Below are positions 25,101 through 54,100 of a stretch of DNA of 64,000 bases, one piece after another. Under the pieces are notes generated by a model that saw nothing but the letters and a program-made list of their open reading frames with translations, did no database searches and was not told the DNA's origin. The first letter of the stretch is position 1, and the number at the start of each line of letters is the position of its first letter. The position numbers were made by a program, and so were the translations under genes. The stretch comes from Hydractinia symbiolongicarpus (lineage: Eukaryota; Cnidaria; Hydrozoa; Anthoathecata; Hydractiniidae). The DNA lies in the NCBI RefSeq assembly GCF_029227915.1, contig NC_079888.1, positions 11,393,001-11,457,000 on the forward strand, read 5' to 3'.

Positions 25101-28100
25101 TCGCCATAGATCGTTCAAAAATCATGAAAACGGGATCGTATAAAGCGAAAAGATCGCCGTAGATTGTGTAGATTGAACCTATGAATATGCAATTTTGCTA
25201 GAGGTTCGTTTCAAGATCGTATAGCAATTTACTTTGTTCAAAGTTCGTATCATTTCATTTTGTACGATAAAAAAACTTTGTTTAAGTTCGTATCATATTT
25301 TAAAAAAGTTCGTATAAACTTCCTTTACATTCTTTATTTTAAACGAAGCACTTCGTATGACATTCATTTCACGAAACGAAGTACTTCGTAGCATTCGTAA
25401 AATTGTATAAAAAAAACATACAAACATTTTGAGATGATCCCTTAAGAGTATCAATGTTCATTTCAAGAACTGCATCTCTAGCTTTACCTTCAAGTGTAAG
25501 AAAAATAGCAGCAGCCTGTTTCTTTTTATCAATATTTGTAAAGATTTGCCAAATTTTTATCTTCTTTTTTCAGTTTTCATATGAAATGTCCTCACTTAAC
25601 GTTGGCGGGGCCTTGTAATCTTTTCTTGAAACCATTATTCCTCTGCTACCATTTGTTAAGTAACAATAATGACTTACTTTGATTGTCTCACTTGGTTACT
25701 CAGCGGTATCACAAACACAACCAGCAGGAACACAACAACACAACTTTATCTGTAACACAACAACGCAACTGGACATCAACACAACTGCACAACCACTTGA
25801 GGCCCCACCAAGACATTCACTATTGTTTATAGTCTATATTATGGAGACAACATATTAATTTTAACAACTAGACCACCTACCAAGAATTTAATGATGGATT
25901 CTGATAAACCACAAGAGGCTGCTGCAGAGGCACCACTATGTGTATTCAGGGCTAAATTGTTTTTAAGGCTAATACTTAAAAAGGCTGAAGCATATTTCCT
26001 TGTCACAAAATCGCCACTGGAAAGGATGAACAAAGGACCATGTGTGCCACCCCGAAACAGTAGGTATTGTCTAATTGCATTAACAGGACATAATTTTCCT
26101 CCAATCTTGGCCAGGCGGGTTTTGATTCATTGCCTTAAGGGATCTGTTTTGGATGCTTCAATATGTAAAAATATAACTTTGCCACAGGGAGAAAAAGTAA
26201 TATCAGAAGGTGCCAGATTGATGGCTGGGTCAAGCAAGGAATTAGAGGGACAAACATATTCTGAAACACGTAAAAACCCCAAAAAGGCAACAAGGAGTGA
26301 TGGATAACCGACGACTGACTACTTGAGGGTGACAACGTCTAATACCTCGTAAGACATAGAACAATTTGTGCATGGAGACTAGTTTTTCATTGTAACAACA
26401 AATATTGCTTTGGTATTGAATACCGCACAAATACACTTTGATTGTAGAAATTTGACTCGTCCAGCAAGAAAAGTAACGAAAAGTTGCAGAGTCAGCTCTT
26501 TAAGTGGAAACATTGGTGCAGAAATTTGGTTACAAAACCCTTGAAAGCTGCGAATTCCTAATAGGTATGTAGACCTAGTATTAGGTGAAAGTGCTGAAAT
26601 CAAGTAGTGATTCATAACGTGTCCAAGAACTCTGAGATCGACTTGGGGACAATTGTAGGAGAAACTTTTGCCTCTGCGCATATGGCTTTGAACTTTGTAA
26701 CCTGTAATCGAGAAAGGAGATTAGCGTAAGTGTTGGAACTGCCAGCTATGTGACACAACAGGAGATTAATATTCCACCAGGCAGTAAAGAAAAACAATTT
26801 TCTTATCAATGACATGATGTACCTGCATTTACACGACCCTGTTTGCCAAATGTGAACAATCGCTTCATTATCTGTATGTAAAACAACTTCCTTGTTACCC
26901 CAACTTTCACCCCAGCAAAATGTGGCAACCACAATGGCTAACAGCTCGCAAAAACTGATACTATAGTCTTGCTGAAAATGAATGGGTAACGAAAACCACC
27001 AACCATCATAATATCCTCAAAGACCTAATCCTGACGCATCTGTATAGAGGTCAGCCCTATGATATGAAATGGTATCCAACTGGAATAAGGCAACCCCATT
27101 CCAGGATGGCAAAAATTCCAGCCACCAGTCAATGTCCTTCCGTGCCTCAGACGATAGAGAAATGTGATGATGCAATTGATGCAACATGGTGGACAAGTCA
27201 ATCAAGCGGCGCAGAAAAATCCGACCGCATTTTACCACTTTCCAAGCAAAGGAAAGGGACCCAATTAAGGACAACAAATCACGTTTGGTGCACTTTTTTG
27301 CCATTTCAGTAAGGTAGACATAAGGTCATTAAACTTTTCCTTAGGGAGTCTAATCATAAGATTAACGGTATCTATCTTGATGCCAAAGTAAGTAATAACT
27401 TGTACTGGACCAATGATTTCAGTGGGACTCCAAGTAATAAACTTTCATAATGGTGTCAACAAAAAATTGACAGTGTAATTTGGAAAGGTGATAAAACCAT
27501 CTAGATAGTGTTTTAAATTTCTTATGTGCACTAAGACAATAAAAATCCAGGTAAGTAAATCTGCAAAATTATTAAAAATAAATGGAGATGATCTGCCACC
27601 AAAAGGCAACACAACATCAAAATAAAATCTATTTTCCCTCTCATAGCCAAGTAAATGCCAGTCATCGGGATGAACTGGACAGAACCTAAAGGCATGCTTA
27701 ATGTCTAATTTTGGCATGTAGCAGCCTTGACCTAAGGACTTAATTAAATTAAGAGCCTCATCAAAAGAAGAATAATTGTCTTTGCTTATGCTGTCATTAA
27801 CAGAGTAACCTCTGGGGAAGGAGAGATCAAGAATCGCTCGAACAGTGTCATCCTTTTTTGGTGCAGCCCCAAGTGGTGAGCAGTGAAAATTAGAAAGGGG
27901 TTCCTGCATGAATGGCCCAACAGTATGTCCCCTGTTAAGTTCTTTTAAAATTGCTGACTTATTGTTTCTGATGGGCGAGGCTAATGTGCTGTTGTCAAAT
28001 CCTAACCTAAATCTACATGTAAAACCAGAAATAATAAAATTTACTACAGCTCTGTTAGGATGAGAGGCTAAGAAGTGGCTTAAAGCGTGAACTTTAATGG

Positions 28101-31100: not shown

Positions 31101-34100
31101 AGATCTTGACCGTAAAGAAAGGAATGATAAGAGAATGGTTAAGTGGATGGGTAATGCCAGTCTGACAGACAAAAAATGTTCAAAAGAGTTCAGAAGCATA
31201 CTAGGTATCCGTATCATTAAGGATGTTATCCGAATAATAAGATTGAGTTGGTGGAGACACTTGAAAAGTATGGAGAAGGATAATTGTGTAAGAAAGTGTA
31301 GAGACTTGATAATTTCTGGGGCAAAGCTCAGTGGCAGACCAAGAAAGACTTCGCAGGAGGTAATGAGGACAGACTTGATGCAGAGGAATTTGAGTTTAGA
31401 TCTAACACAGTCTAGATCAGTTTAAAGATCGGTCATTAATATGCTAGCATAAAAAACAGAAGTTTAGGCAAGAATGATGACAATAATGATGATATGGATG
31501 GCCACTTGATTTTGGAAGTGTTCGCTCACCTCTTATTGATAGCCCTGTTATAAATGGCTTTCAATGTTGACAAAAGTTTGCAAATTTTTGTATGCACATT
31601 CTAATGTAAGGAAAAATAAAATACAACTACATTTTTTCATTTTTATAAAATGTTTTTTCATGGATTTATTTCTGTGTTTACGCTAGATTAGTCTCCAGCA
31701 TTGATATGCAATTCAATTGTGTGGAATGCAAACTATCACTTAGAGACTGCAAAAAAAATGGTCACAGATTGCAGATTTTTTCTACAAAGTAAGGGTTGTC
31801 GACTAATTCTGGAGCACTAATATCGTTACTTTATACCGCATTAATTTTGTTCAGGGATAGAATATTATTATTAATATTATTATTTCTAGAAAATTTCAGC
31901 TTTTAAAAAAATGCCAAAAATTTCTTTAGTATACATTCTGGGTATTTCCCTTTTAATAAGGTAATTGCTGACTTCAGCATGCAATGTGTAAATTCTTGAA
32001 TCAGCAAAATTTGTTTCAGTTTAAACACAAAGTAATAACTTTTAAACAGTGTGTCTGTGACTTACAAAGTTCTGTAATTTACAGTTTTATCTATCCTTTT
32101 TTTCAGGTTTTATTCGAAAGGTGTATGGCATTTTGAGTGCACAACTTTTGTTTACAACATTGGTTGGGGCTTTTTTTATGTACAATGAATCTGCAAAAAA
32201 CTTTGTACAACAAAGGTGAGTACCTTTTTTTACTGAAGTTGCTCAAACTAGAATAGGTGAAGTCGTTTAGGTGGAAGTGTCTTAATTAATTCTTAGCATT
32301 CATTCGGGTTAGAGAATATTTGCATCTGTTTTAGCTAGACAACTTTAGTTATAGGTTGAGCTTGTGTGACTAGAACATTATCTCACCCTTTGACCTACAC
32401 TAACCCCAACCGTGAAAAAGCTAAAGTCCAAAGGGTGTAAATTTCACTGTGTTTTATTGTTCACACAAACTTGTAGAAAATATTTTAGGTTATTTTGACA
32501 TTTGAAACTAAAAGGTATATCGACAAGAAGTCACTTAACCATTACTTTTCTCGTTTTATAATATAATCAAACTTAATAATTAGAATAAGATTTAAAGACA
32601 CAAATAGAATTGTGACTGTCAGCAATGATTTGTGGTGATATCAGTATTTTTCCCAAATTTCAGTTTCCCAAGTATTCTCATTTGTAACTGTTTTTTATGA
32701 CTCTTTCAGGCAAAATTGAAAGCACTTAATGTATTTTAAATGATATAGGCTACTTTAGCTTACTTTTTATAGCCAACTTTTTTTAGTTTTAAGTTTTAAT
32801 TAAATAATTGTGGGGTGGGGAGGGAATAAGAAGAATAAAATAAGTGAAAGAATTAGCAATTTGTCGAAGGATGTAATGACCTTGGAATTAAATGGCTCGT
32901 CATCATCATCATCATCATACTCTGAAATTGTTGATCATTTTATTTAAGTCCTAACTTGTTGTTTATTGGGATGTTTGCATCCATTGGATTAATTATTGCA
33001 CTCGGCATTAAACGAAAAGATGCTCCCATGAACATGTACTTGCTGGCTGCATTCGTAAGTTTTTATTTTTTTATTTTTTTTTATTTTTATTTTTGTCATG
33101 AACTTTATATGTTTCTCTGTATTTTTGATGATTTAAAGTGTAAAGCATAAAATAAGTAAACTATCCTAAGAAATAACCTGAATAGGAGTTTTTCACTTTG
33201 TAAAAAAAGATGTAAGAAACACTAAATTTGTCTATTTAAAAGAGTATGGAGATTTCGTAGATTGTCCACTAAAGAGGAGGGAGGTTCCGTGGATTGTTTA
33301 TTTATAAGAGTAGGGTGATTTCGTGGAGGCATGCTTGTGATATGTGCATCTTGCAAAGCACAATTTATTTTCAATTCAACCAAAGATTTATAAATTTTAT
33401 ATAGCTAAAAGTTATATGTGATGGTCAGGTTTGAAATTCTAAACCTTGTACCTTATCTATACTTTTCATTTTGTTTGTTCTAGACTTTTGTTGAAGCATA
33501 CACAATCGGCACGGTGGGTAAGTATTTTGTATACAAATTTGTACTTAATTTGAGGTGGCAACAATCTAATGTATTTTCTCTTCTTTCTTGTAACTTGATA
33601 ATTTTATTACTTAGTTCAAATTTTCAAAGTTATTTGACATTTATAGAGCGCTTTTAGAAACAGTTCATAATTTTTTTTTATTTAATTTTTTTTAACTCAA
33701 TTTCATATTCCAATTCCAATGTTTTCAGTTTTACATGTTAAATTTGATTTTATTGAGTTGAGAAAGTTAAGTACTGTTTTATCTATATTTTCCTAAAAAT
33801 AGTTTTGCAATTAAAGTTTTCAGTGCTTGAATAATAGTGGTTTTATTTCAATCTTCTTTATGATGTTAACAATTTGCCTTTCTAGTAACATTCTATGATC
33901 AACTCATTGTGCTGCAAGCATTTGGTTTGACAATGGCGACAGTGATTGCCCTGACAGTATACACTTTCCAGTCAAAAAAAGATTACAGCACATGGGGAGC
34001 TGGGTATGTATTTATTTTAGTATAACACTAGCCTGCTGTTTAATATTATTAATATGGCTGCAACCCCTACATAATACATTGGAAAAGAGGGCCAAATTTT

Positions 34101-35107
34101 AAATGTTGCCAGACAAATTATTATGTTCGCTTTTCAAAAAATCACACTTTGAGCTTGTTAAAACTCACTAAAATTTTAAACAACACCAATTTTTGTTGAT
34201 TCCAGCACAAGATTTTCTGAATGTTTTTTTTTTTTGGCAGTGGCATGGATTGTTCCTTAATGTAGTCACTGTGGATATTCTGAAGTTAAATGCCCTTAGC
34301 ATCTACTAAAATAAAGATTTTGCAACCTAACTGATGTAGAGTTTTTTACTGCATACAAAAAGGTTAATAAATTTGCTTTATAGGATCTATTACGTAGAGC
34401 ATAAAATGTTGCTTAAATAATGTTAAGGGTTATGTCCATGCAGTTAAGAGGTAAAGAAAATGATATTATTCCAATCCATATATATTTTTAATATGGGACT
34501 GTCAAGGCCTTATTTGACCTCAGAAGTGCAATGCAATGATTTTACTAATATTTTAATTTTGGCATTTGTACCAAATTAAAATATTGACATTGTAGTGTGC
34601 AATTTGACATGCTCTTGTATTCGTATTTTAATGGAAAAAATAACACACATGTTCATTGCATGTGTGTTATTGTATAGATTACTATAAATTATGATCATTT
34701 TTAGGCTATTCTCAATGCTTTGGATTTTGATTCTTGGTGGAATAATGCAGGTACATTTCCTATAATTGGTTATGAATGGATACATGTTTTCCTGATAGTG
34801 CTAAATTACCATTATTTTTAAATTTGTTCCTTATATGATTGTCAGTATGTGATACCTCACACAGAATGTTCAGTGATGTTGATACTGCATTTTATTTTAG
34901 CTGTTCCTTCGCAGCGAATTGATGGAACTTGGACTAGCTATTGCGGGTGCCCTTTTGTTTTCTGGCTTCATTGTGTTTGATACACATATGTTGATTCACA
35001 AGTTATCACCAGAGGAATATATCCTTGCTGCTATCAATCTATACTTGGATATCATTAACTTGTTTCTGGAGATTTTGAAAATTTTGAATTCTGCAAAACG
35101 CAATTGA
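4452..35107 (+). CDS. TMBIM4: TMBIM4 / Lifeguard-4 (Bax-inhibitor-1 family), 7 exons
   Basis: Coding exons: 4452-4548, 32107-32215, 32949-33054, 33484-33517, 33886-34003, 34705-34750, 34901-35107. All introns are GT-AG and the phases join to 717 nt, 238 aa, the usual family length. The family comprises Golgi/ER membrane proteins that restrain apoptosis and modulate calcium leak. Visible features: short cytosolic N-terminus with the family motif around DFIYG; six to seven hydrophobic segments; the C-terminal block [19 protein letters not shown] and the paired acidic residues D197 and D220 expected for the di-aspartyl pH sensor. The start at 4452 sits in an ACATGG context and gives the normal N-terminus; an upstream in-frame ATG at 4320 would add 44 unrelated residues. 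Oddity: intron 1 is 27,558 bp and packed with transposable elements, while the other introns are 0.4-0.8 kb. TBK1 follows on the same strand. Confidence 0.93.
5089..5239 (-). repeat. Ty3/gypsy 3' LTR (left copy)
   Basis: This 151-bp copy is nearly identical to 18437-18587, differing at a handful of sites. It has TG...CA ends and is preceded by AGTAG at 5084-5088. Confidence 0.93.
5551..6998 (-). pseudogene. Ty3/gypsy RNase H C-terminus and integrase
   Basis: Minus-strand frames give the RNase H tail (6998 down to 6860, with [12 protein letters not shown] and PADYLS), then an integrase (6823-6080) and a C-terminal part (6018-5551). The integrase zinc finger is visible as the H2C2-type segment ending in RHCHPCQVV. 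The second catalytic Asp is in [10 protein letters not shown]. The position expected for the first catalytic Asp reads [10 protein letters not shown], so that residue appears lost. A stop follows LS at about 6859 and the frame changes near 6080, close to the third catalytic residue. The product would not be functional. Confidence 0.85.
6999..7200 (-). repeat. (TAA/TGATAA)n microsatellite, tail of the LINE
   Basis: A pure run of AATAATAAT and GATAATAAT-type units lies exactly between the split gypsy RNase H and the 3' end of the minus-strand LINE. Non-LTR elements of the CR1/RTE type commonly end in such microsatellite tails, so it marks the LINE 3' end and insertion point. Long poly-Asn or poly-Met/Ile frames across it are artefacts. 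Confidence 0.85.
7407..8940 (-). pseudogene. LINE reverse transcriptase
   Basis: Two overlapping minus-strand frames, 8940-8380 and 8351-7407, together cover RT fingers, palm and thumb. Visible motifs are NKATGLDGI, the [13 protein letters not shown] block, [30 protein letters not shown] and the catalytic [10 protein letters not shown]. The break between the frames is at an eight-base A-run (minus strand) near 8415, a typical slippage indel. The C-terminal block with [12 protein letters not shown] is common to cnidarian and fish CR1/Jockey-like elements. Not translatable as one protein. Confidence 0.87.
8903..10135 (-). pseudogene. LINE endonuclease (APE) domain ORF
   Basis: A 410-residue minus-strand frame has the exonuclease-endonuclease-phosphatase signatures: N-terminal [25 protein letters not shown], the catalytic GDFNCNM and SDHNLVYV. 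The linker towards RT follows ([16 protein letters not shown]). The frame stops at 8903 and the RT continues in another frame from 8940, so one small indel separates them. The domain would nick target DNA for target-primed reverse transcription. Confidence 0.85.
10364..10585 (-). repeat. copia-1 3' LTR (left copy)
   Basis: This is a 222-bp LTR with TG...CA ends. The adjoining internal sequence 10586-10602, read on the minus strand, is purine-rich (AGAGGGAGAT), as expected for a polypurine tract. Confidence 0.93.
10880..13369 (-). CDS. copia-1 reverse transcriptase-RNase H polyprotein segment
   Basis: An open 829-residue minus-strand frame. It starts within the integrase ([18 protein letters not shown]), continues through the integrase C-terminal region ([19 protein letters not shown]) and a polar linker, then RT with [23 protein letters not shown] and the catalytic HVDDFLWGG. 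RNase H follows, with [17 protein letters not shown] and the C-terminal [10 protein letters not shown]. The length and order match copia pol. It is out of frame with the upstream integrase ORF because of a 7-bp duplication near 13440, so it could only be expressed after a frame change. Confidence 0.9.
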   Translation of the reverse strand: MIKEMLKKIIEDTKCTHNRALFWTISAKNSLSNNKGFSPNQLVYGKNHDYPCILTDHLPAMNDTVSSKTVAHNLAVMHASRRAFIAAESSERIRRALRHNVQCYNDERYINGDRVFYKRKDSEKWHGPGTVIRQKNKQVLVKHGGSYVRVHMCRLQKLDQVLHSQKPLQDTERNAEVTTTQVNNCIPLERDDVFGEYVGADDFDSNNTEEPENEKTTNLQTTKETTSDGASMNETTTHKISTNEITTNRNVSNSSTVQGIPKLKTKIIYKLTPDSEWTRGLVHSRAGKVSRKGKEGRQYGSCLNVQNEDTGEINWLDFKRCVSDWQPVVETNETEEVLLSTQATVTDEVLNAKYKELANWEDNKVFSTIEDKGQSPISTRWVVTTKNIEGYKTVKARLVIRGFEEEEVKNLTKDSPTFSKESLRIVLTMLATYEWECHTLDVKTAFLQGNQIDREVIIKPPKEANTTGVLWKLNKVVYGLADASRAWYLRVKEELIGLGLRMSLFDEALFYWIQDDCCQGLIVIHVDDFLWGGSHDFQVKVISPIRETFLIGSEDYSNFKYVGVNIQQSNGSINYDQKNYVAGMELVKIENTTDRHRQLSHEEQSNFRCICGQLNWMSSQSRPDISFDVCQLSTKLNCAVVDDVMRANKVVKKLKLDPNISLKFWKLKLPLQLILYSDASFGNLQDGSSQSGIVIFLKGVENLMAPITWQSKKIKRVARSTLAAETLALVNGIDTCIWVKNVINEVLNTNLEGILCHTDNKSLFEAAHSTKSLEDKRLRVDMASLRQSINQKEIELKWISTKHQLADVLTKQGANSTLLMNVLQRGHEE
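13437..14024 (-). pseudogene. copia-1 integrase N-terminal and core
   Basis: A minus-strand frame shows the GAG-pre-integrase zinc region ([12 protein letters not shown]...[10 protein letters not shown]) and the integrase core with the first Asp in VALDLVQLS and the second in [10 protein letters not shown]. It stops right after CEQLAV, just before the block containing the catalytic Glu. Minus-strand sequence there carries AGCAGTT twice in tandem: a 7-bp duplication that shifts the frame. The rest of pol follows in another frame from about 13440. Confidence 0.88.
14357..14619 (-). pseudogene. Two exons of an Aurora kinase gene captured inside copia-1
   Basis: On the minus strand, exon A is 14547-14619 (73 nt; [19 protein letters not shown]...), the activation segment with the TTLCGT autophosphorylation-loop sequence and the PPE motif of Aurora kinases. 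Exon B is 14357-14458 (102 nt, 34 codons; [21 protein letters not shown]), the next part of the C-lobe. Both have acceptor AG and donor GT, and an 88-bp intron separates them. Reading frames are open and phases agree. No further Aurora exon was found on either side. The segment lies between the copia protease and integrase frames, same orientation. Because introns are kept, the capture was at DNA level rather than from mRNA. Confidence 0.87.
14699..15934 (-). CDS. copia-1 Gag-protease ORF
   Basis: This 411-residue minus-strand ORF starts 27 bases downstream of the LTR. The N-terminal Gag (UBN2-type; ...[16 protein letters not shown]) is followed by a basic region and a CCHC zinc knuckle, [15 protein letters not shown] protease-like segment follows with [12 protein letters not shown]; the second position of the expected Asp-Ser/Thr-Gly triad is Cys, an unusual form. 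The frame ends in HHHQG at the edge of the foreign Aurora-bearing segment, so the link to integrase is broken. Gag would form the particle and protease would cut the polyprotein. Confidence 0.88.
15961..16182 (-). repeat. copia-1 5' LTR (right copy)
   Basis: This 222-bp LTR matches 10364-10585. Promoter activity would be directed leftward, opposite to TMBIM4. The TGGTAGCAGAGG primer site follows two bases inside. Confidence 0.93.
16183..16255. other. Orphan segment between copia-1 and the gypsy RNase H
   Basis: Gypsy RNase H homology (minus strand ...FIVNTDHK) ends near 16256, and the 73 bases up to the copia LTR do not continue it. The rest of RNase H resumes at 6998. These bases may be the remaining 5' end of the LINE that the copia interrupted. 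Confidence 0.4.
16256..17505 (-). pseudogene. Ty3/gypsy protease, reverse transcriptase and RNase H N-terminus
   Basis: Minus-strand frames: 17505-16924 holds protease ([12 protein letters not shown], where Asn replaces the expected catalytic Asp of D-S-G) and the start of RT (VPVAQKPRR). It then jumps straight to [11 protein letters not shown]. About 110 residues of the RT palm, including fingers and motif A, are missing, so there is an internal deletion near 17090. 16918-16562 carries the RT thumb ([20 protein letters not shown]). 16560-16256 is a decayed RNase H with stops, ending in NTDHK. Enzymatically dead. Confidence 0.87.
17532..18337 (-). pseudogene. Ty3/gypsy Gag with zinc knuckle
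   Basis: The minus-strand frame from 18337 gives a Gag capsid region ([32 protein letters not shown]-like block). After a frame change near 17880 a second frame (17921-17532) gives the linker and two zinc-binding motifs, [14 protein letters not shown] and [10 protein letters not shown]. The start lies about 100 bases inside the right LTR, as expected. Frameshifted, so a pseudogene. Confidence 0.83.
18437..18587 (-). repeat. Ty3/gypsy 5' LTR (right copy)
   Basis: This 151-bp partner of 5089-5239 is followed by the AGTAG target duplication at 18588-18592. Confidence 0.93.
18593..21092. other. Intronic repeat-rich stretch without a gene
   Basis: No intact gene is seen. 18849-18965 (plus) reads [20 protein letters not shown], then [11 protein letters not shown]. 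This resembles the linker between endonuclease and RT of LINEs and is taken as a LINE scrap. 20110-20236 is a pyrimidine-rich tandem block. The part from about 20240 to 21092 is probably the 3' untranslated end of the Ngaro element on the minus strand. 20795-20830 resembles 2498-2545 in reverse orientation. Confidence 0.5.
20110..20236. repeat. Pyrimidine-rich imperfect tandem repeat
   Basis: Three imperfect units of the type CTTTTGTTTCCTTTNTCTC, separated by TTTTTACAACTTTT. It has no coding meaning; the overlapping Leu/Phe-rich ORF is an artefact. Confidence 0.6.
21209..21422 (-). repeat. copia-2 3' LTR (left copy)
   Basis: A 214-bp LTR that ends ATCAACA and is followed by a purine tract when read on the minus strand. 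About 10-15 differences from the right copy suggest an older insertion than copia-1. Confidence 0.88.
21530..21882 (-). pseudogene. copia-2 RNase H C-terminus
   Basis: The minus frame contains [20 protein letters not shown], then [20 protein letters not shown] and [16 protein letters not shown], the typical end of copia RNase H. It is cut at about 21882 by a plus-strand LINE fragment; the upstream RNase H continues at 22290. Confidence 0.85.
21883..22282 (+). mobile_element. 5'-truncated LINE, 3' end only
   Basis: The plus frame ends in [20 protein letters not shown]...[14 protein letters not shown] and a stop at 22067, the usual C-terminal block of CR1/Jockey-like RT proteins. A 3' untranslated stretch with AATAAA near 22266 follows. 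It interrupts copia-2 RNase H between the QSKRVRRVVK-like and LSAEML parts. The 5' truncation is typical of LINE insertion. Confidence 0.75.
22290..23262 (-). pseudogene. copia-2 reverse transcriptase and RNase H N-terminus
   Basis: Minus-strand frames show [14 protein letters not shown], the motif-A block [20 protein letters not shown], then [15 protein letters not shown]. The palm with the HVDD-type motif is around 22870 in another frame. RNase H ([17 protein letters not shown]) lies at 22300-22629. There are at least two frame breaks. RT sequence ends abruptly at about 23262, where the inverted integrase begins. Confidence 0.85.
23265..24427 (+). pseudogene. copia-2 integrase and linker, in inverted orientation
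   Basis: The plus-strand frame 23265-23714 gives the integrase core: first Asp in FLHLIDNLT, second in [10 protein letters not shown] (Arg in place of the usual first Gly after DN), Glu in [10 protein letters not shown]. It ends in [10 protein letters not shown] and a frame break. The frame 23711-24430 continues with the C-terminal region ([20 protein letters not shown]) and an acidic linker corresponding to that of copia-1. LTRs, RT and Gag read the other way, so this block has flipped. Confidence 0.88.
24430..25441. mobile_element. PIF/Harbinger-like non-autonomous element with internal 53-bp tandem repeats
   Basis: The ends are inverted: GGGATCGTCTC at 24430 and GAGATGATCCC ending at 25441. 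They are flanked by a TTA target duplication (24427-24429 and 25442-25444), the size and sequence usual for PIF/Harbinger. The interior has about 14 copies of a 53-bp unit (24432-25170), then an AT-rich part with ACTTCGTA palindromes. No transposase is encoded. It sits at the join between the inverted integrase block and the Gag remnant of copia-2. Confidence 0.75.
24432..25170. repeat. 53-bp tandem repeat array (~14 units)
   Basis: The unit reads GATCGTAGAAAGCGAAAAGA, TCGCCGTAGATCGTTTAAAA, then ATCATGAAAACGG. Variants recur in blocks (for example the type GTGGAACGTTTAAAATTCAT), indicating higher-order duplication of unit groups. Units are contiguous with no spacers. Confidence 0.9.
25445..25635 (-). 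pseudogene. copia-2 Gag N-terminal remnant
   Basis: The minus frame from the ATG at 25635 reads [20 protein letters not shown], then resembles copia-1 Gag ([20 protein letters not shown]). The Trp expected after ISYEN is a TGA stop. The fragment ends at the Harbinger-like element. It lies just inside the 5' LTR and primer site. Confidence 0.8.
25654..25866 (-). repeat. copia-2 5' LTR (right copy)
   Basis: A 213-bp LTR from TGTTAAGTAAC to TTAACA. It is followed directly by Ngaro recombinase sequence. Confidence 0.88.
25867..26681 (-). pseudogene. Ngaro tyrosine recombinase (main part)
   Basis: The minus strand gives the N-terminal SAM-like domain ([20 protein letters not shown]) and, further on, the catalytic C-terminal region with the helix [20 protein letters not shown]. 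In that helix the usual H-S-F-R-I-G pattern is corrupted (S-G in place of S-F-R-I-G). Several frames are needed between 26379 and 26000. The protein would have cut and joined the circular cDNA. The last part of the domain is at 21208-21093, beyond copia-2. Confidence 0.75.
26612..28428 (-). pseudogene. Ngaro reverse transcriptase-RNase H
   Basis: The minus frame 28428-27445 contains [27 protein letters not shown], the motif-A block [15 protein letters not shown] and [13 protein letters not shown]. The catalytic site reads HYLDGFIT: the second Asp of YLDD is Gly, so polymerase activity is lost. RNase H follows in two frames (27304-27017 with [10 protein letters not shown]; 26932-26612 with [13 protein letters not shown] and [13 protein letters not shown]). 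Frame breaks confirm decay. Confidence 0.85.
28441..28936. mobile_element. MITE with GGTTTAA-type terminal inverted repeats
   Basis: The left end AGCTTGGTGCCCACTGTGG and the right end CCACAATGGGAATCGAGCTT are near-perfect inverted repeats, continuing into TTTAA on the inside. The 0.5-kb interior is AT-rich with no ORF. It interrupts the Ngaro coding region between Gag and RT. Confidence 0.75.
28937..29905 (-). pseudogene. Ngaro Gag-like ORF
   Basis: The minus frame 29905-29540 starts [20 protein letters not shown] and encodes 121 residues of helical, polar protein. A second frame (29320-28937) continues with [20 protein letters not shown], which resembles the short Gag region seen upstream of RT in Ngaro elements. 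The identity rests mainly on position. At least one frame break separates the parts, and the 3' side runs into the MITE. Confidence 0.6.
29930..30730. other. Intronic sequence without a recognisable feature
   Basis: AT-rich sequence upstream of the Ngaro Gag ORF. The 5' terminal repeat of the element should be here but was not identified. No ORF, TIR or tandem repeat stands out. Confidence 0.5.
30770..31425 (+). pseudogene. LINE reverse transcriptase C-terminal fragment
   Basis: One plus frame with a single TGA near 30968 (Trp expected in SA-W-KKFEE). It carries [15 protein letters not shown], then [20 protein letters not shown] and WAVKHEDLD, and near the end [17 protein letters not shown]. 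These are hallmarks of the 3' RT end of non-LTR elements. The tail near 31480 has AATGATGAT repeats. A 5'-truncated plus-strand insertion. Confidence 0.82.
31490..32106. other. 3' end of TMBIM4 intron 1
   Basis: AT-rich, with no repeat or ORF of note. It ends in a T-rich tract and the acceptor AG at 32105-32106. Confidence 0.7.
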
Positions 35108-42100: not shown

Positions 42101-45100
42101 CTCAATTCATTTATCTAGCGAATCCATACTTATCAGAAATTACAAAAAGCTGCAGACCAAGTCAAAGCTATCTTTCCTTGTTGTGTCTCTGTGCAAAGAC
42201 TAATCAAACTTTGTTTGAACTACTAACCTTATTTGACATTCATTTTAAGATGATGTTATATAATTCCAACCATTTGTTGTACTTTGTGACGTATTACATG
42301 AGCTGTTGTTACCTAACCTGACACCAACTTAACTTACCCAGCTCATATGAACAACGTAAAAACCTTTTCAATTTGTTTCATTTCTTCACAGTTTTATTTG
42401 AATGATATTTTCATTAGAACAGTGTTCTTAAAAATAACCACCTCGTTCCCAGAGCGTAGAGTACGCAGGAAAAAATTGGGATAACAGAGACTAAGGGAAT
42501 TTGACTTATCGAGTGAAAAAAGTGACACTTTCGTGTAAAAAATTTTTAAAAATTTGATTTTCTTCCGCTGTATAGTAGAAAATAGAAAAAATAACATGTG
42601 CTTAAATGCCAAATGGAATCCGCTCGCTTAGCTCCGCAATAATACGTGCTTAAAATGCCAAATTGGCTCCCATCTGCTTGCTTTGCTTAGCTCCGCAATA
42701 ATTATGTATAAACTGGGGATAACCTCATTAAAAAACCGGCCCGACTCACCACATGTAAAAAGCTTCTTCAGCATGTTTAACCGATGTTAAAAAGTAATGT
42801 CCTTTTTAACATCTGATGCATGAGATTTTTCAGTGAGTTCTCATTAAAAACAGATATTGTCTTCAAGCAAAATATTTGTTGTGTTTTAGGTTTCGTATGA
42901 TCACTGAGAAGAAACAAGGAGTAATATCTTGTCACCAAAATCCAGCCAATGGACAACTTGTATTTTCGTCAAAATTACCCGAAAATACAAGGATATCGCT
43001 AGGGCTTAAAAACTTAATCACACCCATTTTAAAAGGATTACTTGAAACGAATCCTGAATATATGATCACTCATGACGATTTTTTTCAGAAGATCAAAGAT
43101 ATCATTGATATGAAGGTAGGATGTATGTAAAAATTTTGCCAGAAACAATCATGTTCACTTTGTGTCTGCTGGACTTATTTGTTAATCCGCATATTATTTT
43201 GTTTTGATTGTACAGTTTTATTGAACATAATTTTGTTATGCCACATCTTCATGATATATAAACCGTTATTTGCCAGTCAATACCAGAGCTAAACATTATT
43301 ACCAGTAATTAGAACAGTATAGCCGTTACAACGGAATTTCCGATGTTAATAAACTGTTACTACAGTCGCATGTATTGTACTACGTCAAAATAACTAAATC
43401 TAGTTTAATGAAAATATGTGTTAGTCCATTAGTAACTAGAAAGCATTGAAATGTAGCTTTTATTGGAATGGTATTTTACTACATAATTTTTTACTTTAGG
43501 TATTTTATGTGTTTTCCACAAAAACAAGTTCAATGCATTGCATCTATTTGCGGCAAGAAGACAAGTAAGCCTGCAACATCTTTCCTTTTATTGTTCATCT
43601 TAACTCCTATTGAACCTAATCATTAACATCTGTTTGAATCCTAAAGGACTCGTTCTATCGTTAAGCAAATTGGACAGACAGATAGTTGTCTAGTTATGAT
43701 TTTTATGCAAGTAAGGAACTCTATATTTTGAACGAATACCATTGAGTAATAATATGTAAATAAGCAATTCTTATTTTTGTTATGTATTTCCATATATTTT
43801 GTAAAATCATCGTTGGGTCTGCTCAATCCAGGAAATCAAAAAATCTAAACAAAGTTATATACTTATTAAATGTCTGAACGTTTCGAGTTACCGGTTTGCT
43901 CACCATGTTCTTTTATATACTGGTTTTTAGTTTTACAGCCATTGATATTCAATGTGTCTTATTTTTCACTAAGTATTTCGAATTTACAAGACGTGTTGGC
44001 ATCACAAGTTGGGATAAATGCTTCTGAGCAGGAACTGTATCATAACAATATGGAGTTCCAACCAGACCTTATGGCGCCTGTTTTGCACTATCCAGACATT
44101 ACAGTAAGTTTCTACTATTGTTTTGTTTTTATGGCAATTTTTTAATCTTTGTTTGTCAGCGTTTTATACTTCTTTTTTAAATAAATCCAACAGATAGTTG
44201 CCTTATTCATTATTGCAAAATGCTAATAGGGAATTCCATTAAATAGAGGAATTTGTTTCGGTGATTTTCTTCTTTTATTTTCGTAAGGTTTTTTTATAAG
44301 CTGTGTCAAAAAGTATTCTACTATCAGTGTTCATGTTGAATCTCTAGGTTGACAATCCACTCATAAAAAGTATTTTACTATCAGTGTTCATGTTGAATCT
44401 GTAGATTGACAATCCACTCATAAAAAGTATTTTACTATCAGTGTTCATGTTGAATCTCTAGGTTGACAATCCACTCATAAAAAGTATTTTACTATCAGTG
44501 TTCATGTTGAATCTCTAGGTTGACAATCCACTCATAAAAAGTATTTTACTATCAGTGTTCATGTTGAATCTGTAGATTGACAATCCACTCATAAAAAGTA
44601 TTTTACTATCAGTGTTCATGTTGAATCTGTAGATTGACAATCCACTCATAAAAAGTATTTTACTATCAGTGTTCATGTTGAATCTCTAGGTTGACAATCC
44701 ACTCATAAAACGTATTTTACTATCAGTGTTCATGTTGAATCTGTAGATTGACAATCCACTCATAAAAAGTATTTTACTATCAGTGTTCATGTTGAATCTG
44801 TAGATTGACAATCCACTCATAAAAAGTATTTTACTATCAGTGTTCATGTTGAATCTGTAGATTGACAATCCACTCATAAAAAGTATTTTACTATCAGTGT
44901 TCATGTTGAATCTGTAGATTGACAATCCACTCATAAAAAGTATTTTACTATCAGTGTTCATGTTGAATCTCTAGGGTTGACAATCCACTCATAAAAAGTA
45001 TTTTACTATCAGTGTTCATGTTGAATCTCTAGGTTGACAATCCACTCATAAAAAGTATTTTACTATCAGTGTTCATGTTGAATTTCTAGGTTGACAATCC

Positions 45101-48100
45101 ACTCATAAAAAGTATTTTACTATCAGTGTTCATGTTGAATCTGTAGATTGACAATCAACTCATAAAAAGTATTTTACTATCAGTGTTTATGTTGAATCTC
45201 TAGGTTGACAATCCACTCATAAAAAGTATTTTACTATCAGTGTTCATGTTGAATCTCTAGGTTGACAATCCACTCATAAAAAGTATTTTACTATCAGTGT
45301 TCATGTTGAATCTCTAGGTTGACAATCCACTCATAAAAAGTATTTTACTATCAGTGTTCATGTTGAATCTCTAGGTTGACAATCCACTCATAAAAAGTAT
45401 TTTACTATCAGTGTTCATGTTGAATCTGTAGATTGACAATCCACTCATAAAAAGTATTTTACTATCAGTGTTCATGTTGAATCTCTAGGTTGACAATCCA
45501 CTCATAAAAAGTATTTTACTATCAGTGTTTATGTTGAATCTGTAGATTGACAATCCACTCATAAAAAGTATTTTACTATCAGTGTTCATGTTGAATCTTT
45601 AGATTGACAATCCACTCATATTAATTACAAGTGAAACAACACCATCTCAAAATTTGCAAGAAAAGAAATTCGGTATGTTATTGTCAAAAATTCAATTTTC
45701 ATGTACAAATCAGAAAATTACGATGCGATGCGAAAATATTGTCCTTTTTCTGCGTTGCTAATTGGAAGTCTAATTAGAAGTCACAAAAGTATAACAATTT
45801 TATTTTGCGTTTAAATTTTGTGTTTTTAGCTAGCCTGTCACATCTTGTCAACACGTCAATCAATCCACAAGACGACGCAAACATAGCGAAGGTATAACTT
45901 TGTATAAAAGCAATTACACTGGATGGCTTAAGTAATTAAACTAAGCATTGAAATCGTATGTGGTTTCCATCAATGACCTTCAAACTTCCGAAAAAACAGT
46001 TTAGGTAACTAGTTCCAGTCCTTTTTTCCAGAATGGGCAACATTTTCAAACTACACAATATTTGAAAATGTTTAATCCAAGGTGAGTACTTCACAAAAAA
46101 AGAAAAAAATCCATGTGATCTAGTCATGCCAGCTAGATATCATTGCTCAAAACAACCTTAAAATTACAAAAAAATGTTACGAAAATGTCATAATTTTGGC
46201 ATATAGAGCCTTACAAGAAATGCCATATCTTTATTTATAGTTGTTACTAGGAAATGTGTAGCCCCTCTTTTTTTGCAGAAAGAAAAAACCATCGTATATA
46301 AAGGTAGGATAAAGGCTATTGCTCAAAACTACCCTAAGTTTACAAATGAATTGTTACAGACAAACTCTAATTTTTCCTTCTAGAGCTTCAAAAGAAAGGT
46401 TGTATTTTTATTCATAGATGTTGACAAGAAGTGTGTAACCTAAATAGAAAGAACTTTTTGCATTTAATGATCTATACCTAGGCTATAGGCTATTGCTTGA
46501 AAGAACTTCTGCTGAGGAAATATAGGATGCTTCGAAATCAAACAATTAATAACAAGGATTTAGCAGTAAAAGATTTAGATCATAAAGCTTGGAGAACAAT
46601 TAAATTACCTATTTTAGAAAAAAGTATTTTGAAGTATCTGCGAAGCCATTGCATTGTTGATAATGTGAAATCATTGCATTGGTGATAATAATAATAGAAT
46701 GTCTAATAGAATGCAAATAGAATTTACAGAAAAAAGATGACAACGGCTTTGATGATGAAATGCTTGCTACAGCTCAGAATCAGGTCATCCAGCAAACATC
46801 AAAAGAAGTACTTCTTAAACTTGAAAATACATATCAAGTTGATGAATGGATAACTTTGCGCTTTGGGAATACTTGGTTTCCGGCTCAAGTTGTAGAGGTA
46901 CCGTGGTTTTGATGATAAGCTAATGGCCCATTGATTAAAATCCAATGATTCACCATGATTTTTCTAATTTTTTTTTACCTTTTCTTTTTTACCTTTCCTA
47001 TTGTACCTTTGATTTAATTTTAGGCAGATGATGAGGGTATTGTAGCAAGTTGTATGCATTATGCCATGGGCGATGGAAACAATGCATTTATTTTTCCAAA
47101 TCCAAAAGATCAAGGGTTCTACGATCTTGATGATATTATTTGCAAAATTTCAGCACCAACTCCAAAGAATAATAGATATTTTTGGTTAACCTCTGAAGAT
47201 TTCAAAAACGCTAGCACAGGATTTATTAATTAGTTTATCTTACATTATCTTATTACTTTTTTGTTGTTTCAAATTTATGTTGTTTTTTGATGGTTTACAA
47301 AATATAATATAATTTGTAAGTAAACAATTATATTGTATTGACTTGGTTATTATTGCAGTGATAACACCTGAAGCTTACTAACTGTTTTTAAGGAGTGTAA
47401 AGAAATAGCTTATAGCCTAGGTATAGATCATTGAATGCAAAAAGTTATTTCTACTTTATCTTAGGTTACACACTTTTGCTATGAATGGAGATTTCTTTTA
47501 AAGCTCTTGAAGGAAAAGTTAGAGCTTGTCTGTAACAATTCCTTTGTAAACTTAGGGTAGTTTTGAGCAATAGTCTTTATCCCACCTTTATATACGATGG
47601 TTTTTTTCTTTCTGCAAAAAAAGAGGGGCTACACATTTCCTAGTAACAACTATAAATAAAGATATGGCATTTCTTGTAAGGCTCTATATGCCAAAATTAT
47701 GACATTTTCGTAACATTTTTTTGTAATTTTAAGGTTGTTTTGAGCAATGATATCTAGCTAGCATGACTATAGATCACATGGATTTTTTTCTTTTTTTGTG
47801 AAGTACTCACCTTGGATTAAACATTTTCAAATATTGTGTAGTTTGAAAATGTTGCCCATTCTGGAAAAAAGGACTGGAACTAGTTACCTAAACTGTTTTT
47901 TCGAAAGTTTGAAGGTCATTGATGGAAACCACATACGATTTCAATGCTTAGTTTAATGTTTTCTTTGTACAAAAGTAAGCACTTTACCCAATGCCATTCA
48001 GATTCCCACATTGCTGTATAAGGTGTAACCAAATTTGGGCCTCAAAAGCAGGGAAAATTGGTCAATTTTTAGGAAAAAAGGTCCGAGAGGTGGTTTTGAG

Positions 48101-51100
48101 CTATAATTTTTAGCTAAATGTGAAAAAAATTCTGCAAAACTGGTACACGATCCATAGAACTTATGGACTACAACAGAATCCATATGAAATCAAAGTGACT
48201 GCTAACTAATTTTATAATTTATATAATTTCAAACATAGAACCCAGAAATTCCTTAAAAATGGCCCAAAAAGGCCCAAAAATAGCAAATATTTAATGGGCC
48301 ATAAAATCTTAACCGATAACCGAAATCGAACAAAATTTTCAAAAAATATCTAAAACCATAGTAACTTTAACATAAGTAAAAATCTAGTAATTTTGGAAAC
48401 CTTACTTCCTCTGAGTGCCTGACTGTTACAGAAAATGGCTCTTAAGTAATAGCGTTTTAGTTGACTCAGTGAAACTGATTTTAAGAAGGGTACCTGGATG
48501 GAATGGATTGATCTGCAAATTTGTTTTGTAAGAGACAACTAAAGAAAAAATGTGAAGCTGTTAACAGAGTTTTAAACAAGTAAAAATAATCTAGGCTCTC
48601 TACGAATATCAAGATTTTTATTAAAGCAAGCAACTTTAGGAAAAATATACTTTGAGTGGATAAAATCTCGCATGGATTAAATTTCGCGGTTTTCGCGGTT
48701 TTTGCAAAATTAAATCTACGCAAAATTGAATTTTGAAAAACTTATTTTTTTAAGTTTTTCTAAAGGGTAAAGTGAAACAGACGTAATTTTTAATCATTTT
48801 TTTACAATATTCTTTCTCTTTTTACATGATGACACGATAAGGACTAAAAATCAATTTTTAATCCATTTCTATTATGTTATTATAATATTAAATGTACTTT
48901 TCACAATTTACTTTTCAAAATTTTAATATCTTACAACGTGGCTCTTTCAATTGTGGGATATTAGCGGATTTCTGGCTTTTTCTCTTCGTTTTGTTGATAC
49001 TTCCCATTTCTGGCGGCGTTTGCTGTTGATTTCGAGGCCAGTATGAAGGTAGTCACATGTCGTTGGAGTGCATTTGGAATTTTAGGCGCCGTAAAAGAAG
49101 GGGCTAGAAATCTGCCTATGTTAGATCTATTTTCTGATCCTCTTGAAACCAGTGTTGAAGACATGCTTACCGTCAATTCATTCCCAGAACCCGACCACAT
49201 CGGTGTTATTGAAATAAACATTGATTATCACAGTGAGTTTGAATACCAGGACGAAGATGACGAAGACAGTGAAGATGAGAATGAGGAAGAAACTAATGAA
49301 GTTAAAAACAAGGGAAAAGACAGAAATGTTTTTGATTTTCTCATAAGTAAATGTTAAATATTACATAAATATTTGTTTTGAGACGATAAAGTAGAGCATC
49401 TCCAAATGATGTTAAAAATTTTTTTTTTTTTAAATTACATTATTTCGCTTGTCTGCGTAATTAAGTCCACGCGAAATTTTATCCACTTAAGGTATTGTCT
49501 TTGTTCGTATCAATAAATAATTTAAAATTGCCAGGTTTTTCTCAATGTTGATCTAACAATATTTATAAAAATTATTTCAAATAGCCTCAACATGGAATTG
49601 TAGTGTTGGAATTAAAGGTATTTTTATCGTTTAGGTGTATGCAAATTTAGGGTTTTCGTTGCTACGTCAAGCTGAACTTCTCGTCACTGCACGAAAAGCT
49701 ATCCATCAAACACACGAAACATTTGAGTAAGAACCACGTGCAATTATTTCTGTCTGTTTCTATTTTTTTATAACGTATCACAACCGTAAAAATATTACAT
49801 GCTAAGAATTTGTGTTGCAAGTGCAAATTATTAAAGCCAAGTTAAATCTCGTAGCGTTCAATATTTTCAAACAAGCAAAATTTTTGTTAAAAGGAACCTG
49901 AGGTATAAAATGATGTTGGACATATATTATAGAGCTTAAAAGTCGGTTAACATTTTTTTTAAATTTTTTTAGGTTTTTAAAAAATTTAAAGAAACTAGTT
50001 AGCCAACTTTTTAAGCTCTGTAAGATAAGTCCAACATCATTATATACCTCGGGTTCCATTTAAGATTTTTTTTTTATTGTACCACTATCATATAAAAATA
50101 GACTACTTCGTAAGATTTTGCGATAATTTATTTCATACAAACTACTACCAATTTTAGATGACTTTGTTATTTTTTTTTTGTTTTATTTGTTCTTGTTTTT
50201 TTTTCATATTTTTTTAAATTTAATTTTCTCTGTTTAGATTTGTTCTTGAGAGATTATTTCAAAATACAGAAGAATATGCAAGACACCTTCAAATGAGAGT
50301 AACTGATAAATATAGAAGCCTAATAAGGTACAGATTTTTGTTGTTGTTGTTGTTTGCTGTTGTTTGTTGCTTGTTGTTTGCTGTTGTTGTTATTGTTATT
50401 GTTGTTTGTTGTTATTTGTTGTTTGTTGTTGTTGTTTGCTGTTGTTTGTTGCTTGTTGTTTGTTGTTATTTGTTATTGTTATTGTTGTTGCTGTTGTTGT
50501 TATTGTTGTTGTTGTTTGTTGTTATTTGTTGTTTGTTGTTGATTTAACTTAGGGTTTAAAACCCCTGAAATGAAGGCAGACTTTTCACTTTAGTTTTGCG
50601 TCTTTACTGGAAAAGTTTCATGGCACGGGTGAAAACAAATCGCGTAAGTTTTCTTTTTATATATCTATGTTATATCTTTTAAATAAATTCCAACATTTGC
50701 TGCTGTCGTTTCAATGATGAGAAGAAAAATAGTTATTTTACACTCGTCATTTCTAAGAGGAGTATATCTGCTTACTCAGATTTTCTCTTATTCTGGAATT
50801 AAAAATGCATTTTATTTTTTTAACTAAATTTTAAGTTCCTAGTCTAGTTAAAGTAGGGCGAATAAAGAGAGTTCTACACTTTTCTCATCTTTTTTATTCC
50901 ATTTTGTACTTATACCTTTTGTATGTTTGCATTTACTTTTTTAATATACCTAGGTTCTACTTAAAACAGGTGTTCTCTTGTTTTTTTAGCACCTCCAGAA
51001 TGTCGAGAGAAGGTATGTTATTTTGTGCTTTTTCTCAAATCGAGTACTATATTCCACCAACAAATCGAGTACTATATTCCACCAACAAATCGAGTACTAT

Positions 51101-54100
51101 ATTCCACCAACAAATCGAGTACTATATTCCACCAACAAATCGAGTACTATATTCCACCAACAAATCGAGTACTATATTCCACCAACAAATCGACTACTAT
51201 ATTCCACCAACAAATCCTACGTGTTTATTAAAAAAAAAATTGTGTATGTACATACTTTAGGGATAATTTTGGACCGTGTAACTACCAAAGGTTAATGCTG
51301 TTAAAAATATGACTCGTTTTTCCTACAGATCATGATGCATGTTTTTATAGCCACTGATTATATATAAAGAAATTTTTATTTGATTTGCAGCATGTCTTTG
51401 TTATATTTACCGATGGCGTAACGCGTATTCATATTGGACTCTTTATTAACTTCCTTATTCTTATTAGTATAATGACGTCATTAAATGTTTATCAGAACTT
51501 GAAAAAGAATTTTTTGATGTGATGAAGAAAAAAATGTTAAGAGAGGAGTGGGTTTCAGATGCTGATTTTTTAAAGACGCAACCATGGTGAGTTAGCTTTG
51601 TATTTTTACTTGGTTATGGTAAAATATAAATCCTGAAGTCGGTGTCTAACATGGAATAAGATGCTAGGGGTTAATATTTGAGGTTTCAAAGCTCATCGAA
51701 TAACCCTTTCTCGACCAGCATTTGCAAACACTGCTTTTCAATAATTTTGACAAAATAACTTTAAAATTTGTTGAATGATGTTAGAGTGGTAGTAAAACGT
51801 TGATTTTGTCATAGCTTTCTTTCTCACAAAAATATCAGTACGGCCAAAAAAAAACATGTTACCATGGATAGCACTACGTTAGGCTAAAATAAAAGTTTTC
51901 TCATTAAACTTGACAAAGTGAGCAAAAGATTTTCTCATTAAACTTGACAAAGTGAGCAAAAGATTTTCTCATAAAACTTGACAAAGTGAGCATTATTATA
52001 TAAGGGTTGCGGAGCAGAAATGAGTTCGCTATGTTCGCAAGCGAAAAATTGCAAATTATTATCTACGTAGAAACCAGGCCTAAAATGGGAGCAATTTTGA
52101 TTCCATGTGGCGTTGCGGAAAACGAAGAAGTTCTGAGGACGAGATTGAGTGGAGAGAATCTCAAAAATTATCCTTCGCGTCTGGTACAAAGCGTTTGTAG
52201 CAAAGATAATCTGTCATCAAACTCAGATTTTCAAAGAAGTTTACGAAAACATGACAAAAGAAAATACCCCAATTTTTTCGAATCACTTTTGATTTTCCGT
52301 AATAAGATGTAATTTTTCTGTCATTTTTTCTGTTTGTTTAAAAAACCCACGTGTGACGGGTAATAAGAATTGAAAAAACTCTAATTCAATTATGCTGCAT
52401 CGGGCGTACAGTAATTTTCATACAATAAACCTAAGAATTGTTGCATTCAGAGCACATAAGATAATTAATATACATATATCATAGTGAGGAGAAAAGTCCG
52501 GCTTGTTCATCCCAATACGTTTTGAAGAAAAAGATTAACATGTTATCATTTATTCATATCCGCAAAGTTAAAAAACTTATCTCATCGAAAAAATAATACG
52601 CGCTTAAATGCCAAATGGGCTATGCTTCGCTCCGCAAAAAGAAGCAAGTCGAGTATATAATGACAGATTTTCTTTATAGTGAACAAGAAATAAAAAAATC
52701 ATTGTTTCAATCATTTCTGTATTGGAAAGAATTTTACCTAGCCGACTAACTTATTGATGTGTTTCACACCTGTTATCCTTTGGATATAAACTGACAAAAC
52801 GTTGCGCCCTTAACATGGATAAGCGTAACATGTCATATAGCATCTCTCCTACAACCTAAGCAAGATGCTACTCCCGGTTTAAAATTTGTTCCCATTTAAT
52901 ATGTTGCTACGCGAATGCGGTAAAAATATATGCTAGCTAAGTATTAAATTAAACCCCTACAACTCGAATCTCTCCTTAACTCGAACGATTTCCCTGACAT
53001 GGTGGGAATTTCCTCTAAACGCTCTATTACTCGAACCCTATAACTCGAATCTCTCCTTAACTCGAATTTTTTTTTTTTTTTGGTCTCCTCGGGTATTTCC
53101 TCTCTATAACTTAAACGTCCCAACATGTATCTAGAACTTTATACGACACAAGCAGTTTTTTTGCATTGTTTTGGCTATGTAAACGTAAATAGAGTCTTAA
53201 CTGATTCGAGTGTTTCATATCTACATATCATACAAGAAAGCAAACTCTAATTCGGATTTCTTTTCTTCCCAAGAAAAAATCGTCGAGATAAAATATTTTG
53301 TATTTTTATTTTTTCAGTCCGTTCTTAGCCTACAAGGACTAGATTTTACCCTGTACAAAGAAAAAATTTCGTCCCCATTCCATATAAGAGAGAAATAATC
53401 ACGCTTAATGGGCCATTTATAAAAAAATTTATACAAAAACTTGGAAAAACTCCCAACTCTCTATTATCCGAACCTCTCTATAACTCGAATGGTTTCCGAT
53501 TCCCCGTGGCTGTTTGAGTTATAGAGAGTCCGCTGTATGCTGTATGTAGTACTCTGTTAACGCTGTGCTTTACAGGATTTAGTAAGTATTAAGTATACTT
53601 AATATTTCGCCAAATATTAAAAAGAAATCATTATTTTGTTCTCATTAACATTTGAAGTTATGTCAAATCTACAACCTACAACCTTATTTAACGAAAATTT
53701 TATTCTGGTAATTAAAGTTTTTAATAAAAGTAATTTGTGTCCCTAGAATACACCATTGGCTTCCTAAGTCATGAATTGTTAGATTCAATCGAAAGATTTT
53801 TACACTTTTTTTACACTTAATTTCTTTCTTTTTGCTTTCAGGCTCGAATCGATATCTGCGGATGCGAAAGTAATTGAAAAAACATATGAAAGATTCTATA
53901 AGGATAAATTTAGACGAAGCAGTAAGTCCAAACCAAGGATTCTTTAGAGCTTTAGTAAAAAACCTTTAATAATTTAGATGTTAGGTGTAAAATAGGCTTT
54001 AAAGAAGTGATAGTGGGTTATTACTTGAAAATCCTCTACGTAGCCGCTCTACTACTTTTTGATTTGTTTATAGATGCAACAATACTGGATGATCTTGTTC

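Follow-up and report, generated by a model that had tools for sequence, protein, structure and literature searches.

The window analysed here, 64,000 nucleotides of Hydractinia symbiolongicarpus (positions 11,393,001 to 11,457,000 of contig NC_079888.1, forward strand), contains a gene of this colonial hydroid identified from its sequence as that of the immune kinase TBK1, in which a 57-bp minisatellite repeats the 3' splice site (acceptor) of exon 11. The real acceptor is preceded by 22 copies, and the choice of any of these is predicted to lead to an early stop codon. We consider it probable that the array is recent and driven by mutation, that the additional acceptors are mostly bypassed and that the transcripts mis-spliced at them are decayed, in other words that it is a tolerated accident. 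The upstream units are of two types, called C-type and G-type after their base at position -4 from the exon. The features on which the argument relies are the following.

43974..44103, + strand: TBK1 exon 10, 130 nt, ending in phase 0 at the donor ACA/GTAAGT
44104..45602, + strand: intron 10, 1499 nt, or 244 nt after subtraction of the 1255 nt of extra units
44308..45619, + strand: minisatellite of 23 units, each with 40 nt of intron 10 and 17 nt of exon 11
44308..44364, + strand: unit 1, at the 5' edge of the array, C-type, with TCTAC for TTTAC
44935..44992, + strand: unit 12, 58 bp, with an extra G after the TAG; predicted stop after residue 376
45449..45505, + strand: unit 21, C-type, acceptor at 45488/45489, which would give a 184-nt exon 11; predicted to be the strongest competitor of the real acceptor
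45506..45562, + strand: unit 22, G-type, weak by the acceptor matrix; would give a 127-nt exon 11
45563..45619, + strand: unit 23, with the real acceptor CTTTAG/ATTGAC, the sole unit with T at -4
45575, + strand: A (at -28) of the branch-point match TTTAC of unit 23
45603..45672, + strand: TBK1 exon 11, 70 nt, end of the ubiquitin-like domain

Tandem Repeats Finder (TRF), run on the window, reports a tandem minisatellite at 44308-45620 with period 57, 23.0 copies, 97% matches and a score of 2421. Cutting at the common ACTCAT yields 23 units, that is 22 upstream and the real one (45563-45619); with this cut unit 1 appears as 58 bases, one flanking C being included. Both procedures agree with the initial annotation, which had proposed a 57-bp minisatellite with 22 upstream copies of the acceptor. 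That annotation had also described the unit as the end of the intron followed by 18 coding bases: the 40 nt from the 3' end of intron 10 and the start of exon 11 are indeed present, but the array proper holds 17 exon bases, and the 18th (A) also matches at its edge. All units are 57 bp long except unit 12 (44935-44992), which at 58 bp is the one that had been noticed for its extra G and different frame. The TAG of the acceptor is intact in 23/23 units, whereas the motif TCTNTAG, formerly ascribed to the units in general, fits 21 of the 22 upstream ones, unit 14 reading TTTCTAG. The putative branch-point match TTTAC is found in all units but unit 1, where TCTAC stands instead, and in the real unit its A lies 28 bases ahead of the exon, a usual location for a branch point. 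The units are arranged head to tail, fall in the range of about 10-100 bp and are present in many copies, as in a minisatellite, with a splice junction of the host gene inside each, and the acceptor is copied in tandem together with its context.

The array is confined to this locus. With up to 3 mismatches allowed, a 25-base stretch taken from the unit matches the window 23 times and none of 100 shuffled versions of it; in the 480.9-Mb genome (480,894,487 bases in 76 contigs, for which match counts are lower bounds) it has at least 23 matches, all belonging to the array itself, and no dispersed unit copies were found outside the array by this search. A 35-base piece of exon 11 has 1 match in the genome, indicating a single locus. 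No second haplotype of the locus was found when the unit and exon 11 pieces were searched genome-wide in this one assembly. The array, its uniqueness in the assembly and the two unit types are direct observations.

Concerning the host gene, the joining of 14 exons gives an open product of 479 residues, in which a domain search finds Pkinase (1.2e-48) and TBK1_ULD (4.4e-14), the ubiquitin-like domain corresponding to residues 310-392. The best PDB matches are TBK1 (5w5v, E 4.5e-105) and the first other protein listed is IKK-beta (6.8e-34). Exons 15-17 extend the open sequence downstream, as far as the gene was modelled. The end of exon 10 falls after codon 375, in phase 0, and exon 11 follows in frame; the exon 11 peptide aligns with ENPIFVVSRE of human TBK1; because of this homology, 45603 is taken as the real exon 11 acceptor. 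The name of the gene, the exon numbers and the phase previously assigned all agree with the product domains, the PDB matches and the exon joins. A processed TBK1 copy carrying the exon 10-11 join was sought as a stand-in for cDNA, with 0 matches in the genome (up to 3 mismatches). A genome search with PF18396 gave no match, but its controls were also without match and the domain is divided among several exons, and the search is uninformative on paralogues.

The consequences of splicing exon 10 into the array were read from the frames. Every one of the 22 upstream acceptors would lead to an early stop. Units 1-11 and 13-22 would each add 18 residues and end at residue 393, because the intron, in phase 0, has TAG as its last three bases and the unit corresponds to 19 codons, so that the TAG of the next unit becomes an in-frame stop. 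The product of about 393 residues expected by the initial annotation is thus obtained from 21 of the 22 upstream choices, and unit 12 gives 376 residues. Units of both types have stops in all three forward frames. The gene, the frames and the stops are direct readings of the DNA, while the truncated product is a prediction: it would be native to residue 375, with about six more residues in common with exon 11, and would retain the kinase domain and the greater part of the ubiquitin-like one. In extent it would resemble the human TBK1 chain 4eut (396 residues, matched over 7-386), which we take to be a construct of the kinase and the ubiquitin-like domain. In animals, an early stop with further junctions downstream is an expected target of nonsense-mediated decay, and the transcripts spliced to upstream units should undergo it.

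Beyond what had been annotated, the upstream units split into two linked types: 12 have C at -4 together with G at +1 and 10 have G at -4 together with A at +1, none being mixed. T at -4 occurs only in the real acceptor among the 23 units. To score acceptors we used a matrix built from 20 other acceptors of TBK1 and of the gene adjoining it upstream on the same strand (32949-35106), which by its sequence we take to be TMBIM4 (LFG4); at 20 sites this matrix is rough. The -4 base in these acceptors is T in 14, C in 4, A in 2 and G in none. The real site scores 3.66, C-type units 5.31 and G-type units -0.66; the scores departing from the type value are those of unit 12 (1.44), unit 14 (6.54), unit 16 (4.50) and unit 22 (-1.47). 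In five variants of the matrix, with one unit of each type read, the G-type was lowest in every one, and the C-type outscored the real site where +1 is included (three variants) and was slightly below it where +1 is left out (two variants). Strong AGs are also common elsewhere: outside the array, 62 of 635 intronic AGs in these genes, or 4.4 per kb, score at or above the real acceptor, and the score of the C-type is attained by 27, or 1.9 per kb. The array holds 11 and 10 such units, respectively, in 1.3 kb, about two and about four times the outside density.

Which acceptor is used can be predicted in part from exon size. The internal exons modelled in TBK1 and TMBIM4 range from 23 to 226 nt (n=20), and exon 11 would measure 70 nt from the real acceptor, 127 nt from unit 22, 184 nt from unit 21, 241 nt from unit 20, 298 nt from unit 19 and 1325 nt from unit 1. 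Only the last unit runs into a complete exon, and therefore unit 23 must be the productive acceptor. Exon definition, combined with this size range, suggests that only the last few units compete with it, the C-type unit 21 more so than the G-type unit 22. We therefore favour, as a prediction, exon definition over a first-come choice, in which case the type of the last units would matter and their total number would not. This is contrary to the proposal of the initial annotation that repeat number could tune TBK1 output.

As for the origin of the array, a 57-bp seed probably chanced to straddle the junction between intron 10 and exon 11 and then grew to 23 units recently, via replication slippage or unequal exchange. 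The upstream units would then be mostly bypassed, since exon definition would pair the donor of exon 11 with an acceptor close to it and since G stands at -4 in 10 of the 22; leftover upstream use would fall mainly on units 21, 19 and 18, the C-type ones closest to exon 11, and would be rendered harmless by the built-in in-frame stop followed by nonsense-mediated decay. The choice of acceptor, the decay, the neutrality and the mode of expansion are what this reading adds to the observations.

The youth of the array is suggested by the fact that 15 of the 22 upstream units are exact copies of one or the other of two sequences and seven carry one change each, units 16 and 22 having the same single change. 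For a random 57-bp seed in the 17.4-kb collapsed span, the probability of straddling one of its 42 junctions is P = 0.124; for six arrays with period of at least 19, the probability that one or more would do so by chance is P = 0.325; among ten arrays checked in the span, the 57-bp array is the one with a junction inside. From these probabilities, its placement needs no special cause, and it is the copy number, together with the apparent survival of the gene, that makes the case interesting. Although 22/22 upstream TAGs are intact, 7 changes in 1255 bases predict about 0.4 changes in the 66 letters concerned, and the comparison has no power to reveal selection against the decoys. No higher-order block duplication is visible in the order of unit types, the longest repeated type string being 5 and equalled by 95% of shuffles. 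Arrays of period 20-200 with at least 5 copies were present in 0/19 stretches of 10 kb (19 of a set of 20), a small and satellite-rich sample (11/19 mostly a 203- or 373-bp satellite) that indicates merely that such arrays are not very common. At 2.0 Mb, satellite of these periods was found in 11 of the 15 contigs C1-C15 sampled over 10 kb (203-bp in 7, 373-bp in 4), filling almost the whole sample in ten and 7.8 kb of it in one, and large blocks of it are common to a similar place on most chromosomes.

It should be noted that several points weigh against our reading. Co-transcriptional splicing could favour the first units, and a choice of whichever acceptor is transcribed earliest would make unit 1 dominant and leave little full TBK1. 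With the matrix including +1 to +3, 11 of the 22 upstream units score at or above the real acceptor, and since each copy takes in everything from -40 to +17, the sequence offers no strong ground for their being ignored. Moreover, the exon 11 acceptor is weak, the sixth lowest of 21 in leave-one-out scoring, and leakage may be large. The count of strong upstream units also speaks for an alternative that we regard as unlikely, namely that the array is a rheostat of poison acceptors, whose length or unit types would set the amount of full-length TBK1 through decay or through a 393-residue product with the kinase and the ubiquitin-like domain and without the coiled coil. The early stop reached from every upstream choice and the likeness in extent to the human chain 4eut fit it too, as does a title in the reference list of PMC2630376 (Lievers 2001) that links the 31-bp variable number tandem repeat (VNTR) of human CBS with reduced CBS activity. 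However, exon sizes speak against every unit except the last few, the exon from unit 1 reaching 1325 nt, and hence against an effect of total length; ten of the 22 score far under the real site, AGs as strong as the real acceptor are common outside the array (the 62 of 635 given above), and an array that looks this young is unlikely to be a long-standing adaptation. The stronger version, a rheostat of innate immunity in which the allelic number and the C/G order of the decoys set the TBK1 dose between Hydractinia individuals or colonies by way of leaky splicing, decay or a truncated kinase, seems to us very unlikely.

The opposite alternative, distinctly unlikely in our estimation, is an array that is wholly silent, exon definition or some other context sending all splicing to 45603. 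The same outside AGs would count in its favour, since they are presumably ignored, but they lack the copied branch point, tract and exon context of the units. Folding gives no grounds for hidden decoys either: an RNA made up of units 20-23 and exon 11 folds no better than shuffles (z -0.64; 50/200 shuffles fold at least as well). Serial micro-introns or recursive splicing within the array, using the AG/GT of C-type units or a GTATTT donor, were set aside as highly improbable. An acceptor abutting GT (TAG/GTTGAC) does stand in 11 of the 12 C-type units (not in unit 12), that is in 11 of the 22 upstream units, and in potato a boundary duplication gave rise to an intron whose donor lies in the copied piece of exon (excerpts of PMC4974935). 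But among the GTs of units 2-3 the highest scores are 2.32, 2.02 and 1.65, the last being that of the AG/GT site, against 4.27-10.08 for the 21 genuine donors (leave-one-out; a 21-site matrix, not an assay), and a micro-intron would span 35 nt where the shortest of 20 introns here has 71. An assembly artefact, or a collapsed or expanded repeat, has next to no probability. Near-identical tandem units are generally hard to assemble, but the assembly HSymV2.0 of H. symbiolongicarpus, to which the genome used here is taken to correspond, was made from PacBio HiFi reads at 66x plus Hi-C (excerpts of PMC10411563), the read N50 of 13.2 kb is ten times the array length, and the order of unit types is free of block duplication.

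We also searched for other sources or roles of the repeat. A search of viral_contigs for an exact 27-base stretch of the unit gave 0 matches, which speaks against a viral source, and nothing in the window reaches the gathering score of a known RNA family. One minus-strand frame runs open through G-type units (up to 94 aa) and is stopped by the C-type, and we regard this frame as a by-product of a unit length divisible by three.

Similar accidents have been described. In human CBS, c.844_845ins68 is a 68-bp tandem duplication over an intron/exon junction, in which the distal site is strongly favoured and normal mRNA is made; the excerpts of PMC2630376 call the duplicated site a "splice donor", although the junction is that of intron 7 and exon 8 and a title in its reference list (Romano 2002) speaks of a 3' splice site. 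As in TBK1, an acceptor junction is duplicated in tandem and competing sites result, and the distal preference is a precedent for distal choice in the TBK1 array; the CBS duplication, however, is a human polymorphism with one extra copy, while the array has 22. The CBS 31-bp VNTR, c.1444_1467+7(16_21), is polymorphic with 16-21 units and includes exon positions 1444-1467 and 7 intron bases (PMC2630376, excerpts); from this notation each unit would hold a splice site. It is, like ours, a minisatellite spanning an exon/intron boundary, but in another gene and with the donor repeated in 31 bp, whereas in TBK1 it is the acceptor, in 57 bp. In potato RdRp, a tandem duplication of an intron-exon boundary led to intron gain, confirmed by RNA reads, with the donor GTAAG in the copied exon (PMC4974935, excerpts). 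There too a putative branch site (TTTAC in both), a tract, the 3' splice site and the exon start were copied; in contrast, it has one copy and a good donor, and the piece of exon copied in TBK1 has no comparable one (best 2.32 versus 4.27 for the lowest genuine). Finally, Farlow and others proposed from Drosophila that nonsense-mediated decay acts as a back-up by which newly gained, inefficiently spliced introns escape the notice of selection (PMC2809761, excerpts). Early stops would shield the gene from poorly spliced new sequence in both cases, but theirs is a general model of intron gain and not of a repeat array. The initial annotation knew of no described case of a tandemly repeated acceptor in this gene; this holds for TBK1 within the literature searched, but the kind was already described in the two CBS cases. 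No acceptor array of comparable size was found described among the best-ranked results of a search of mostly open papers, which is weak ground for absence. The TBK1 array is new in degree and in gene, the kind of accident being already known.

Some other features of the window were noted. The TMBIM4-like gene has a possible first exon near 4.4 kb, past about 28 kb rich in retroelement-like frames. Intron 12 of TBK1 contains a 2.0-kb element (45935-47957) in which inverted arms, about 460 bp long, enclose reading frames; the arms are 99% complementary over the outer 354 bp and 89% further in, and the element looks like a recent foldback-type transposon. A 25-bp array of 7.2 copies with 99% matches (51036-51216) starts 24 bases past TBK1 exon 16, not across the junction, and a TTG-rich microsatellite (50338-50541) starts 11 bases past exon 14. 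A 53-bp array of 13.6 copies (24447-25164) starts about 17 bases past the stop of a retroelement-like frame, copia-like by eye.

The 23 near-identical acceptors represent a natural experiment on the choice made by the spliceosome, for which exon definition predicts the last units and a first-come rule the first. The +1 base (G in the C-type, A in the G-type and the real unit) and the exon bases from 19 onward (ATTAATT after a unit, AAAAAGT in exon 11) separate the classes in ordinary RNA reads, and accessions of public Hydractinia RNA-seq data are given in PMC10411563 (excerpts): SRR1796501-SRR1796515, SRR9331388-SRR9331403, SRR14265606-SRR14265626 and SRR18686538-SRR18686548. The array also suggests a rule, according to which a repeat of 3n bases over a phase-0 TAG acceptor brings its own stop codon, and this may let such arrays escape selection.

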